Of a stretch of DNA of 62,591 nt, positions 403 through 55,874 are shown in pieces (the first letter of the stretch is position 1; every line of letters starts with the position of its first letter). Under the pieces are notes generated by a model that saw nothing but the letters and a program-made list of their open reading frames with translations, searched no databases and was not told the origin of the DNA. Origin of the DNA: an uncultured Anaerolineaceae bacterium. Lineage in GTDB: Bacteria; Chloroflexota; Anaerolineae; Anaerolineales; Anaerolineaceae. Location: contig CAKMKJ010000027.1 of the NCBI GenBank assembly GCA_927443345.1, positions 1 to 62,591 of the forward strand, in the 5' to 3' direction. Position numbers and translations under genes: made by a program.

Positions 403-1002
403 ATGGCACTAAATAATTTTGATGAGGATCAATTTGACCAGGAAAGTTTTGGTGGCGGAGATTATGAACCGGAGCCTCCCAAACGAAGAGGGAATCGCAC
501 CTTCCTGATTGCCATCGCTATCGTCGGCATCATCTTTGTGATTGCCTTAATCTTGTTGTTGCTTGTGGCACCAAAATTGTTGGCCGACCAGCGCCTTGCC
601 CAGCAGGAACAGGCTGCCCAGATCAATGCGGCCAATACGGCCACAGCCATGTACGCCACATCAATGGCGCAGTTGGCACAAGCCACCAAAACACCAACCA
701 AGACTGTCGTCGCAGCGGCTGGAGGAGCAGCACCTACCAAAACACCAGTGGTCGTGATTCAACAGAATACGCCCATGGGTGCCGGCGGCTCGGGTCTTTC
801 AGCCTCGGAGCTGGCCACGGTTTCAGCTCTGCAAACTGAGATGGCCGGACGCGGCGTATCAGGCACTCCTGGCGTTTCAGCTACGGCGCTGCCCTCCGCT
901 GGTTTTGCGGATGACGTGGGCTTGCCAATGATGGCTGGTTTGGCGATCATCCTTGTGGCTGTCATCGTTCTCAGCCGCAGACTCAGAACGAACACCAGAT
1001 AA
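403..1002 (+). CDS. Thr/Pro-rich membrane protein with LPSAGF sorting-signal-like tail
   Basis: This 199-residue protein has an acidic N-terminus, a strong membrane segment at about residues 33-56, an Ala/Gln-rich helix, a low-complexity linker with repeated TKTP motifs, and a C-terminus laid out like a cell-wall sorting signal: LPSAGF at about 165-170, a hydrophobic stretch, then RRLRTNTR. Classical sortase substrates carry LPxTG plus a hydrophobic helix and basic tail; here Ala replaces Thr. The start is supported by aggagg eight bases upstream. It follows the partial gene closely and is itself followed by a strong hairpin. A sortase-domain protein is encoded at 52.5-55.9 kb. Surface anchoring is inference; it could also simply be a two-pass membrane protein. 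Confidence 0.7.
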   Translation: MALNNFDEDQFDQESFGGGDYEPEPPKRRGNRTFLIAIAIVGIIFVIALILLLLVAPKLLADQRLAQQEQAAQINAANTATAMYATSMAQLAQATKTPTKTVVAAAGGAAPTKTPVVVIQQNTPMGAGGSGLSASELATVSALQTEMAGRGVSGTPGVSATALPSAGFADDVGLPMMAGLAIILVAVIVLSRRLRTNTR

Positions 1003-52330: not shown

Positions 52331-52453
52331 GTGTTCTGTGCGCCTCAGATTTCCCCAGATTTAATGGGGCGAGCGAAGAGAGAGGGATGACCCACCCTTA
52401 AAAACGGTCCTCTTGGCGGACTTTGCGTGCCTTGGCGTTCTTTGCGAGAAAAT

Positions 52454-52480
52454 GGTTTTCTCCGCGCCTCTGCGTGAGAA
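52454..52480 (+). repeat. Dispersed repeat copy B
   Basis: The last 20 of these bases (tccgcgcctctgcgtgagaa, 52461-52480) recur exactly as reverse complement at 62323-62342. The first seven (ggttttc) match copy A. Confidence 0.8.
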
Positions 52481-52487
52481 GAGGTTT

Positions 52488-55400
52488 TTACTTCACCTCC
52501 ATCAAGACTGCCCGCACCAGCACCCTGCGCTCATACTCACCGCTGTCTTCATCATACCCTTGACAGGTGACAAGCGTCAGCCAGGCCTTCTCTTGATGCT
52601 TCATCATCGCTTTGACGTTCTCGGGTTTGACGCTGAACACCTCGCGTACTTCGTAGACATACGCCTGCCCCCAGGCGTGGAGGATCACCTGATCGCCGTA
52701 TTTCAGTTTATCCAAACCGTAGAATGGACCCGGTTGATTGAGTGCGTCCCACACATGCGCGGTAAGCACTGAGTTACCCTTATATCCAAGCTGAGCGCTG
52801 CCCTCAAGCCACCCGATCTGGCTGCCCAGCCAGGTGACATCCCAATTGTCATTTTCTTTCGGTACACCGATAATCGCGGTTTCAAGTGCCAAAGCTGGCA
52901 CATCAAGCCACTCCTCCCCAAGATCAGTGTAGGCAAACTGTTGTGGTTCTAGTTGTGTTATTACTCCTTGCCGAAAACCCGTAACTGGGATGAGCGGCAT
53001 ACTACTTGTAAAGTTATTATTCGTGGCGGATGGTGTATTAATTCCATTGCCTGGGTCAAATCCATTGTCAGATGTATTTCCGCCTGAATCAGGGTCACCC
53101 GTGCCACCATTGGTAGAGATCGAGAATGTAATTACGGAATCGGCCCCATCGTTTAAAGGGGTGCCGGCTAAATCCCTGATGGTGTGCGCGCCGCAGATAA
53201 TCAGACGGTAGGTTCCTTTTGGCAGGTTTACACCGTAGTTTATTGAGAGATCTGCTGTAAAAGAAGCTGATTCATACTGGATGCTATTAATAGTAACGCG
53301 TTTGTCATCTGCTTTGGTTGTTTCACAAGTTGACGTATCAAAGGTTTGATTGGCCCCCCATTCAAGCAAACGGTAATTTAGCGGGTTATTCGCGGCGTCA
53401 TCGGTGCCATCGTGCAGCACATCCTTGCTAAATTGAACGAATAAGTGATTGAGACTTTCGTTAAGGGTTTGATTGTCATGAGGCGTGAGGGTTTCGTCAT
53501 TTACAACCGTTGGTGCGGCGAAACCATCTGGTGACATCCTCGTTGAAAAAGTGAAAGAGTAATCCTTGCTCATGAAATCAGGTGGATCAGCTTCATCCAG
53601 ATCGTTTATTTTTTCCGCCTTTATGTTGCCCGTGCATGTGTCAGCGTACTTGAAATCCAGATTTGTACTTATTGTGAACTTAATTGGTCGTCCCTCGGTC
53701 TGGAATGAATAAACACCACCCTTAATACAAGAAACATCGACCCAACCTGTTTGAAGATTAACCGGTTCAGAAAAAGTAATATTGAATCTATTATCGACAG
53801 CAACATCGGTTGCATTATTTGGTGGAAAAATCTCAACGACGGTTGGAGGTTGATCGGTTGGCGGCGCGGTAGAAAAAGATATAAAAAAATTTTCATCCAT
53901 CTCGTCAGGTGGGTCTTTGCTATCTTGGTCGTGAATCTGCGAAGCAAAAAGGGTCAACAAACAGCTTTCATTATTTGCAAAATTCACATCCGGTTTAACC
54001 ACCTTGGTCTGGGAGGTTCCACTGGCAACAAATGTATGTTCTCCACTGAGAGAACACTTCAACTCAGCCCACGAATTATCAACCACTATATCTTCACTGA
54101 ACTCAACACGGATTTCACTATCTACTGCTACATTGGTCGCACCATCGGTTGGCAGAATCTTGGTAACGTTTGGCGCGGCATCACGGTTTTCGACTGTTTT
54201 AAAATTGATGATTTGGTCCAGAAGCATGGCATCTGGAGGGTCCGTTAGGTCAAGATCGGTAACATATAGTGCTGTAATGGTCATTGAACAATTATCATCA
54301 GAAACGAATTTATGGTCTGGTTTAACGAGAAATGTGGATGGACCTCCAGATAAAACAAAAGTATATTCTTCTCCGCTTGAGCAGGTTATTGTTAATGCTC
54401 TCGAATCAATAGCAACTGGTTCGTTAAATGTGAGTTCAATGGTCTGATCCAAAGGTACAGAATCGGTGTCATTTGAGGGGATTGAAGATTGTAAAAAAGG
54501 GGCTGTGTCTGGATTTGTGAGGGTTGAAAAGGCCACCGAAAAATCTGAGGGCATGTTGTCTGGAGGATCATCCAAATCAAGGTCAGACACTTTTTGGGCG
54601 ATAATGGTCAATGTGCAGTTTTCATCATAATGGTATTGATTTTGAGGAGTTAAAGTAAAAGTTTCTGACCCACCTGAAACATCCGCCATATGGAGCCCAC
54701 TTGAAGTGCAACTAATCAAAAACCAACCAGGGGTAACGGCTACCGGCTCTGAAAATTGGACACTTAAAAGGCTGTCCAACGAAACTGCAATTGCGTTGTT
54801 AGCTGGGGACAAATTTGAGATGATTGGTGCGTCATCTGGTAAGGGGAGGGCAGAAAAACTGAAGGAATATTCTTTATCCAATAGATCAGGTGGGTCTGCA
54901 GCGTCTTGATCAGACACCTTTTCTGAAAAAATGGTGATGCTGCAAATATCACCGTTAATAAAATCCAGATTAGGGTCCACTGAAAAAATTATCGGCCCAC
55001 CGCTTACCGAAAAGTTATGCTGCTTGCTAACCGAACAGGATAATGAAAGCCACCCCTCTGACAGATTAACTGGCTCTGAAAATGTAAGTGACAGGTTGGC
55101 GTCAAGTTGCACATTAACAGATGTATCTGCGGGTGTGTTGGTCACAAGGGTCGGAGCGTTATCAACGCCATTTGGGATGAGTGAAAAATCATCCACTGCC
55201 AGACCATCATTTTTTCCGAGGGCATCATTGTGGTCTCTCCACCTGATCCAGAATGTCTCACCAGGCGCGATGGTCAAACCGGTAATTGTGAATAGTTTAT
55301 CTACCCTATGTCGCGGGAGGTTGCCGTCTTTATTTCCAATTTGATCTTGAAAGGGAGTCTCGAATGTAAGTTCATCGTAGATTTTCCAAACACCGTTACC

Positions 55401-55874
55401 TATGGTGGTAGCATTTGTGCTTAGTTCAAAAATGATCTTGTCGATGCGGCCTGTCCTCGCAAGTCGCCATTCTTCGCCGGTATATTTTATGGTCAGCGAT
55501 TTCATTACTCCCCCGGTATGGTTGGTGAATGATGCACCAAAGGTGGGCACCAGATTGCTGTCTTGAATACCTCCAAGCGCCCGATCTGTTGAGCCGGTTG
55601 ATCCAAAACTGTAGGTATCACCACTGCCGGAATTTCCGGTGCTTGCAAGATACCTGTTATTCGCATTAGAGCCTGACTCAGATAATACCCAACCAACCGG
55701 AAGTGAGTCTGAATCTGTGGTATTTGAAAGAGAATCAAAATTCTGTAAGTATGGCGTTCCCAGAGCAGACAATATAATGGTACTATCTGCTTTAGCCGTC
55801 GAATGATCCAAAACACCCGCTGTCATGCAAATTGCCAAAAATAACAGGATTACTCTCCATAGACCTGATCTCAT
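52488..55874 (-). CDS. Secreted Ig-repeat protein fused to a sortase domain
   Basis: Read from the start at 55874 (backed by ggaggg), this 1128-residue protein has a signal peptide (about 1-30), an N-terminal beta-sandwich-like region (about 35-235, with GDTYSFGSTGSTDRALGG), five Ig-like repeats of about 105-110 residues (237-779), a sixth diverged one (784-920), a Gly/Asn-rich linker, an IPVTGF motif (962-967) and a sortase domain. The sortase triad is present: His1040 (LTAHVW), Cys1104 (TLVTCQG) and Arg1117 (YERRVLVRA). Sortases join proteins to the cell wall or to each other at (L/I)PxTG. The Ig part could display the enzyme or be its substrate. No sortase-substrate gene is adjacent. Confidence 0.88.
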   Translation of the reverse strand: MRSGLWRVILLFLAICMTAGVLDHSTAKADSTIILSALGTPYLQNFDSLSNTTDSDSLPVGWVLSESGSNANNRYLASTGNSGSGDTYSFGSTGSTDRALGGIQDSNLVPTFGASFTNHTGGVMKSLTIKYTGEEWRLARTGRIDKIIFELSTNATTIGNGVWKIYDELTFETPFQDQIGNKDGNLPRHRVDKLFTITGLTIAPGETFWIRWRDHNDALGKNDGLAVDDFSLIPNGVDNAPTLVTNTPADTSVNVQLDANLSLTFSEPVNLSEGWLSLSCSVSKQHNFSVSGGPIIFSVDPNLDFINGDICSITIFSEKVSDQDAADPPDLLDKEYSFSFSALPLPDDAPIISNLSPANNAIAVSLDSLLSVQFSEPVAVTPGWFLISCTSSGLHMADVSGGSETFTLTPQNQYHYDENCTLTIIAQKVSDLDLDDPPDNMPSDFSVAFSTLTNPDTAPFLQSSIPSNDTDSVPLDQTIELTFNEPVAIDSRALTITCSSGEEYTFVLSGGPSTFLVKPDHKFVSDDNCSMTITALYVTDLDLTDPPDAMLLDQIINFKTVENRDAAPNVTKILPTDGATNVAVDSEIRVEFSEDIVVDNSWAELKCSLSGEHTFVASGTSQTKVVKPDVNFANNESCLLTLFASQIHDQDSKDPPDEMDENFFISFSTAPPTDQPPTVVEIFPPNNATDVAVDNRFNITFSEPVNLQTGWVDVSCIKGGVYSFQTEGRPIKFTISTNLDFKYADTCTGNIKAEKINDLDEADPPDFMSKDYSFTFSTRMSPDGFAAPTVVNDETLTPHDNQTLNESLNHLFVQFSKDVLHDGTDDAANNPLNYRLLEWGANQTFDTSTCETTKADDKRVTINSIQYESASFTADLSINYGVNLPKGTYRLIICGAHTIRDLAGTPLNDGADSVITFSISTNGGTGDPDSGGNTSDNGFDPGNGINTPSATNNNFTSSMPLIPVTGFRQGVITQLEPQQFAYTDLGEEWLDVPALALETAIIGVPKENDNWDVTWLGSQIGWLEGSAQLGYKGNSVLTAHVWDALNQPGPFYGLDKLKYGDQVILHAWGQAYVYEVREVFSVKPENVKAMMKHQEKAWLTLVTCQGYDEDSGEYERRVLVRAVLMEVK
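53538..55166 (-). repeat. Five Cys-paired Ig-like repeats inside the sortase fusion
   Basis: Five protein repeats of about 105-110 residues each show the same order: (S/N)EPV or SEDI, W-x-(D/E/S)-(V/L/I)-x-C near residue 45, C near residue 75, D-(Q/L)-D-x3-DPPD near 90, and a final SFSFS-like strand. The two Cys per repeat suggest an intradomain disulfide; the acidic stretch suggests a Ca site. These are inferences from pattern. Confidence 0.8.

Follow-up and report, generated by a model that had tools for sequence, protein, structure and literature searches.

A sortase domain joined to its own LPxTGF-like motif at the end of varied secreted proteins: a predicted self-sorting cassette in Anaerolineae

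As it is taught, a sortase pathway has two distinct parts: an enzyme in the membrane, and a substrate that carries a helix and a tail. The gene discussed here, which occupies positions 52488-55874 on the minus strand of a 62,591-nucleotide stretch (the window) from an uncultured Anaerolineaceae bacterium (GenBank assembly GCA_927443345.1, contig CAKMKJ010000027.1), belongs to a family in which substrate, motif and enzyme lie in one chain, an arrangement that is repeated across poorly known environmental bacteria. A self-cleavable sortase fusion was reportedly engineered by Mao in 2004. Engineered srtA-LPETG-protein fusions (BISOP, PMC2901362) resemble the window protein in that a sortase and an LPETG motif in one chain cut themselves; however, they are hand-made, carry the sortase N-terminal of the motif and are used for purification. 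In the class E enzyme SrtE1 of Streptomyces coelicolor (structure 5cuw), residues of the enzyme's own N-terminal linker are found in the active site of the crystal, but this tripeptide reads AQA and holds no sorting motif, and SrtE1 is a separate membrane enzyme for LAXTG substrates (PMC5148588). Class C sortases also place an N-terminal segment over the active site; unlike in the window family, this lid is Asp-Pro-aromatic and not LPxTG, and the enzymes are separate and membrane-anchored. A further likeness is to the LPXTG signal (PF00746) that is served by a housekeeping sortase: in both, secreted proteins carry a motif close to their end that is portable across varied cargo, whereas the window family has a sortase domain in place of the hydrophobic helix and charged tail. 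Both parts, the sortase fold and the sorting motif, are thus known, and no description of a natural sortase-plus-LPxTG fusion, or of their union as a conserved portable cassette, was found in the accessible portions of the literature searched, which lay mostly outside the subscription journals.

The open frame of the window gene runs uninterrupted from an ATG at 55874 to a stop at 52488 and encodes 1128 residues, in which a secreted display protein is followed by the predicted C-terminal self-sorting cassette (all coordinates of its parts refer to the minus strand). The sorting motif IPVTGF (residues 962-967, 52974-52991), with a predicted scissile bond between Thr965 and Gly966, is delimited by conservation in homologues and lies, in the manner of an LPXTG signal, towards the C-terminus. 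A connector (residues 968-982, 52929-52973) that lacks regular structure in the AlphaFold2 model (block means 94 and 92) leads from it to the first barrel strand of the sortase catalytic domain (residues 983-1128, 52491-52928), the bounds of which rest on Pfam, AlphaFold2 and alignment to solved structures. A search of this domain against sortase families, as the initial annotation had proposed, places it in the sortase superfamily by both domain and active site: PF04203 matches residues 990-1124 (E-value 5.3e-23, 81.6 bits, cut-off 26.6), TIGR01076 of NCBIfam scores 48.1 bits (cut-off 39.35), and the catalytic His1040 (52755-52757), Cys1104 (52563-52565) and Arg1117 (52524-52526), the codons of which were checked by eye, correspond to the columns H92, C156 and R169 that are invariant in all 81 rows of our alignment A3. 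Frame, Pfam matches and residues together bear out the initial annotation of a secreted 1128-residue protein with IPVTGF before an intact C-terminal His/Cys/Arg sortase domain. As to class, the highest NCBIfam match is the class C model NF033745, at 48.8 bits against a cut-off of 160, and the models for class F (47.4 against 166), class E (32 against 160) and class D (24.8 against 165) likewise fall below theirs. The Asp-Pro-aromatic lid of class C is missing from the window protein, which has IPVTGF in the segment before the barrel instead, as is a C-terminal membrane helix of the class C type, the chain of the AlphaFold2 model ending at the last strand of the sortase barrel. The hydrophobic helix and positive tail of an LPXTG sorting signal are also not found after the motif, and the sortase domain follows directly.

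Judged by sequence, the window protein is a member of a large, mostly Anaerolineae family, throughout which the motif is near-invariant; the initial annotation had supposed a similar motif before other Chloroflexi sortase domains and had suggested aligning homologues, which bears this out. From 232 domain matches, 194 were retained as non-identical by their last 110 residues, and 173 related domains of at least 150 bits (compared by their last 105 residues, with no requirement that the motif region align) show the pattern [LIVM]P.[TS]G[FY] at the site in 167 cases. The same pattern occurs only twice in the 209,107 residues of these frames upstream of the site, which rules out a chance motif. 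The six exceptions are APATGF (locus L238), TPATGF (L101), ILDTGF (L235), two domains with no motif (L115 and L131) and the fragment L132. Among 169 non-identical fused frames, a count that required model alignment from position 8 or before and hence leans towards motif carriers, the Gly and the Phe/Tyr are kept in all, Thr/Ser in 168, Pro in 167 and Leu/Ile/Met/Val in 166; the X position is free, being occupied by Ala, Val, Asp, Glu, Ser, Arg and others. The Pro, Gly and Phe of the motif are also unchanged in 81 of 81 rows of alignment A3 and, with the His, Cys and Arg, are among its only 17 invariant columns. The first conserved Trp stands 48-53 residues from the motif in 155 of the 156 cases (out of the 167) in which this distance was measurable. 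In the 42 domains below 150 bits, the motif with Phe/Tyr precedes only three, namely L217, a fused copy cut by the contig, and L128 and L129 of genome G031, and two further domains are preceded by a chance-like P.TGS. Separately, the motif is duplicated in two members, as LPSTGF twice at a distance of 22 residues (L032) and as LPTTGF and LPATGF 11 residues apart (L070), which could make two cutting sites.

The fused domains also differ in what precedes them. By a Kyte-Doolittle (KD) rule, which is crude, a helix-like stretch lies within the 260 residues upstream of 35 of 40 domains below 150 bits versus 2 of 165 fused domains; these totals do not count the eight fused domains (of 173) that are preceded by fewer than 200 residues, nor L216 and L217 among the 42 low-scoring ones. 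The five low-scoring domains without a near helix, L128 and L129 of G031 and three of genome G045, each have at least one such stretch further upstream. After the motif, a single one of 169 fused copies reaches a KD value of 1.8 over 19 residues. In these sequences, the motif thus appears to stand in for the membrane anchor. The sequence upstream of the motif varies freely, with 70 Pfam families at an E-value of 0.001 or better in 45 proteins (45 of 91 eligible cargo parts were scanned). The 25 cargo families listed include DUF11, DUF7507, many Ig-like families, SpaA, Cna_B, subtilase, endonuclease/phosphatase, ice-binding and SdrD_B domains. Such variety is the behaviour of a portable sorting signal and not that of an enzyme with one partner.

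A tree of the domains from which the motif was excluded, comprising 51 of 172 fused domains (a random 45 and the named ones) and all 40 others, with L132, L216 and L217 left out, placed the fused domains and L128 on one side of a branch with support of 98/99. The cassette may have arisen once, with the membrane anchor of a sortase being exchanged for motif and cargo. Within the fused clade, the catalytic Arg is replaced only in L115, by Trp, and in L131, by Tyr, and both copies also lack the motif; given that they lie on different branches, the paired losses of motif and Arg look independent. A motif serving only another enzyme would have less reason to vanish along with the fused domain's own Arg.

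AlphaFold2 models were obtained for the cassettes of the window protein and of its relative in Longilinea arvoryzae KOME-1, with a mean predicted local distance difference test (pLDDT) of 93.8 and 95.0, respectively. Residues 11-20, which hold the motif in the former and its last four residues in the latter, score 90 and 96; the first ten residues of the window model, the end of the linker, average 51, and those of the Longilinea model 67, with residues 1-3 below 50. VIA-align matched the models to solved sortases with Z-scores of 15.5-18.1 (50 solved chains being listed for the window model), 5cuw being the first of several tied matches (Z 18.1, root-mean-square deviation 1.8, 135 residues). 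By profile, most of the top solved chains are class C enzymes, although the very first, 4d70, is class D. For most class A and E enzymes the alignment begins only around the first strand of the models, whereas most class C enzymes with an N-terminal segment, and likewise 5cuw, align from the motif or earlier. In 5cuw the first aligned residue is 168 for both models, which sets the motif Pro at residue 170; residues 168-170 are the linker peptide bound in the active site of SrtE1 (residues 171-192 were not seen), and residue 170 has been linked to the P3 place of the sorting signal (PMC5148588). Taking no gap, the motif Pro of both models further falls on Pro91 of 4g1j and Pro85 of 4g1h, which belong to lid tripeptides (DPX; Asp90-Tyr92 and Asp84-Phe86) that overlap the LPAT bound to SrtA, Pro on Pro (PMC3493515). 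By this predicted placement the motif lies beside the active site and not inside the barrel. Its conservation and, as far as the models go, its position speak against the concern voiced in the initial annotation, that homologues might lack the motif or bury it in the fold.

The initial annotation had read the combination of motif, display region and enzyme in cis as a possible sign that the protein cleaves, attaches or polymerises itself, a reading that the data support in part. We propose that the C-terminal ~170 residues constitute a portable self-sorting cassette, in which the protein's own motif is cut, the cargo is transferred to a surface amine and the enzyme is shed, and we put the probability of this reading at roughly 0.6. 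It draws on computed features, namely motif invariance, fixed spacing, want of a membrane anchor, cargo diversity, joint loss and predicted active-site placement, from which we infer cleavage, its action in cis, transfer over hydrolysis and the acceptor. After Sec export, the cassette would fold and bring the LPxTGF motif into the active-site groove of the sortase domain next to it; Cys1104 would attack Thr965, the Thr965-Gly966 bond would be cut and the display part (residues 30-965) would be held as a thioester on the enzyme until a surface amine, on lipid II or peptidoglycan or on a lysine of a neighbouring surface protein, takes the cargo. The enzyme of ~160 residues would then be shed, each enzyme working once. 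The cassette would in this manner do the work both of the hydrophobic helix and charged tail that end an ordinary sorting signal and of the membrane-bound sortase that acts on it. On this view each protein would cut itself and fix itself to the cell, with no other enzyme needed for anchoring. Engineered srtA-LPETG-protein fusions, which cleave themselves, show that the principle can work by design (PMC2901362). A murG relative in the cell (240.4 bits, just below the curated cut-off of 250.25) makes lipid II a candidate acceptor, although this is suggestive only; the same search also matched in archaea among 14 controls and exceeded the cut-off in only 9 of the 14. Nearness to class C and the presence of some tandem genes make a lysine of a neighbouring surface protein another possible acceptor. 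On a wider and more tentative view, to which we give somewhat less than an even chance, this bacterial order displays many surface proteins via disposable, single-turnover in-chain sortases, joined to the wall or to neighbours (some being tandem), and could build covalent polymers without a dedicated sortase.

The main and serious rival is that the motif is an inhibitory pseudo-substrate lid of the class C type, which plugs the site until a partner displaces it, so that the enzyme acts on other proteins and the display region only tethers it. In favour of this, the structural alignment sets the motif roughly at the position of class C lids, profile comparison ranks class C enzymes among the nearest, and their lids act as pseudo-substrates, deletion of the N-terminal part raising activity (PMC3493515). 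However, the class C lid in that account is without Thr-Gly, whereas the Thr/Ser and Gly needed for cutting are kept here in 168 and 169 of 169 copies; moreover, a lid gives no account of the cargo variety or the missing membrane anchor. Few ordinary LPxTG-plus-helix partners are apparent, with PF00746 above its cut-off in 4 of 61 genomes, but this count is weak evidence against a lid, because matches below the cut-off (E-value up to 0.1) occur in 33 of the 61, among them real LPxTGF-plus-helix ends. On account of this weak count and of the 3rbj and 3re9 alignments given below we have weighed the lid slightly up, and still regard it as unlikely.

The two remaining alternatives are less likely again. 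The same motif, placement and loss data would fit a domain that cuts its own motif and leaves water to finish the reaction, as a maturation or release device freeing the display part, and with no membrane anchor such release needs nothing further; yet the protein would already be free once its signal peptide is removed, so that cutting off 160 residues would gain little, and sortases are normally slow hydrolases, which together make this explanation improbable. It is harder still to credit that some other, membrane-bound sortase in the cell uses the motif as its substrate while the fused domain has another role. The genome does encode seven further PF04203 matches, and a helix-like stretch precedes the domain in all four of the frames that were read over their full length. 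The motif, however, stays at an almost constant distance from the fused domain, is without the usual helix and charged tail, and is gone from the two copies that lost their own catalytic Arg.

Several observations weigh against the self-sorting cassette itself. L131 is a 203-residue remnant without cargo, such that its joint loss may be plain decay, and the L235 copy reads ILDTGF despite an intact His, Cys and Arg. One motif carrier, L129 (G031:C1:2602001-2612000), lies outside the main clade on a long branch, and G045 encodes eight sortase frames of 330-2418 residues, each with the sortase at the frame end and all without the LPxTGF motif. The four stand-alone sortase frames of the window's own genome, with a helix-like stretch before the domain and no [LI]P.[TS]GF motif, might cut the motif. 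No conserved acceptor was found. A crude signal-peptide rule picked up 91 of 113 complete frames; among the 15 listed out of 22 missed frames, some have a signal-like start but no fitting ATG and others have no such start. As to the models, the motif has a high pLDDT yet no regular structure, and pLDDT speaks only for local accuracy; class C lids are familiar to AlphaFold2, which could put any N-terminal segment in that position. Only the end points can be read from the alignment ranges, and the register given here presupposes that they start without a gap. The Longilinea model aligns from its residue 1 also with 3rbj and 3re9, two structures in which the lid is displaced or open (PMC3493515), so the start of a range alone is no proof of lid position. 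With the class C entries 7d6t and 4d7w the alignment does not begin before residues 29-32 of the window model, and the implied register for 3rbk, 3g66 and 2w1k differs by one to three residues between the two models.

The divergent sortase of L129 ends a 735-residue frame and has IPQTGF and LPSTGM before the domain; it is perhaps a second origin of the same arrangement. Seven of the eight G045 frames (330-2230 residues) lie on one 20-kb stretch, L127 (G045:C134:8001-28000), and the eighth (2418 residues, L136) on another contig; these sortases form a separate group in the tree, and in five of the eight frames a helix-like stretch occurs no more than 260 residues ahead of the domain.

If cleavage proves true, nature would have here a self-sorting domain whose logic can be likened to that of an intein or an autotransporter. 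The surface coat of Anaerolineae would then be accounted for, and the cassette would supply a ready-made self-ligating tag and let a sortase be viewed naturally together with the true substrate that belongs to it.

A 170-residue piece searched in 61 genomes (the own genome and relatives) found a match at an E-value of 1e-3 or better in 58, and one at 1e-20 or better that starts at the motif in at least 33 among the matches listed; in genome G010 a motif-starting domain is interrupted by the contig end. Across the phylum, a match at 1e-20 or better occurs in 74 of 400 genomes and one of 170 bits or more in 29, with at most eight candidates scored per genome, so that copies may be undercounted. 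The 170-bit-plus matches start at the motif at the end of frames of 396-3846 residues, except for broken or motif-less ones in G329 and G169, and all 29 genomes belong to the window's order, except G329, which is of the same class. Weaker matches are mostly stand-alone frames that align from about model position 30, two of G031 starting at the motif. In named-species genomes, a relative is encoded in 421 of 465 candidate stretches, and the titles of the 79 loci kept are nearly all Anaerolineae, Anaerolineales or Chloroflexi, including Longilinea arvoryzae KOME-1; two titles (KSB1 and Herpetosiphon) may be wrongly binned genomes. The recurrence of the arrangement in many genomes, that of KOME-1 included, excludes an assembly or gene-fusion artefact.

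The loci showed no fixed partner or pilus operon, and their cargo is highly varied. Once identical ends are removed, nine loci still contain more than one related domain; L069 had three frames up to that point. The nine include L127 of G045 with its motif-less copies as well as L115 and L235, in each of which one copy of the two does not keep to the motif; the loci being short, tandem genes may be undercounted. In the genome of the window, PF04203 matches ten places. Three are C-terminal in long frames (the window gene and frames of 2478 and 866 residues) with [LI]P.[TS]GF before the domain, four are the stand-alone frames mentioned above, and the remaining three are weak matches in a cluster of 198-residue secreted proteins. 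The cluster (L017, 4226-6599) consists of three tandem genes at 28.9, 23.5 and 21.1 bits (cut-off 26.6), the products of which keep a Cys (LQTC) and look like small, free, secreted sortase relatives. A DNA pattern for LPxTGF matched 17 times in this genome versus 11 for a control pattern, and two of the matches precede a sortase domain; the third fused copy reads LPASGF and falls outside the pattern.

The display part of the window protein begins with a typical Sec signal peptide (residues 1-29, 55788-55874) with cleavage after AKA, judged by eye, as was a GGAGGG immediately upstream of the ATG. The region that follows (about residues 30-240, 55155-55787; bounds by eye), a putative sandwich fold according to the initial annotation, received no name in the Pfam and NCBIfam profile scans. 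The five Ig-like repeats of the initial annotation are matched by Big_5 (PF13205) in five stretches (E-value 6.6e-59, the best stretch being 566-669) across about residues 241-797 (53484-55154; outer bounds by eye). A further stretch without a Pfam name (about residues 800-925, 53100-53477) leads to a Gly/Asn/Thr/Ser-rich linker (about residues 926-961, 52992-53099), which is probably flexible in view of its sequence and of the low pLDDT at the start of the model. The intergenic stretch 52380-52490 of the window, directly past the stop codon, has the appearance of a repeat of the 'tttgcg...cctctgcgtgaga' type. Elsewhere in the window (403-1002, plus strand), a 199-residue protein with an N-terminal helix and a Thr/Pro-rich linker has an end resembling a sorting signal (LPSAGFADD, a helix and RRLR). 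It is the copy of a ~200-residue protein that occurs in the order with an LPxTGF-plus-helix end; copies in relatives (L149, L150 and L154) read LP[ST]TGFADE, and the LPSAGF of the window copy, with Ala for Thr, may no longer be a sortase site.

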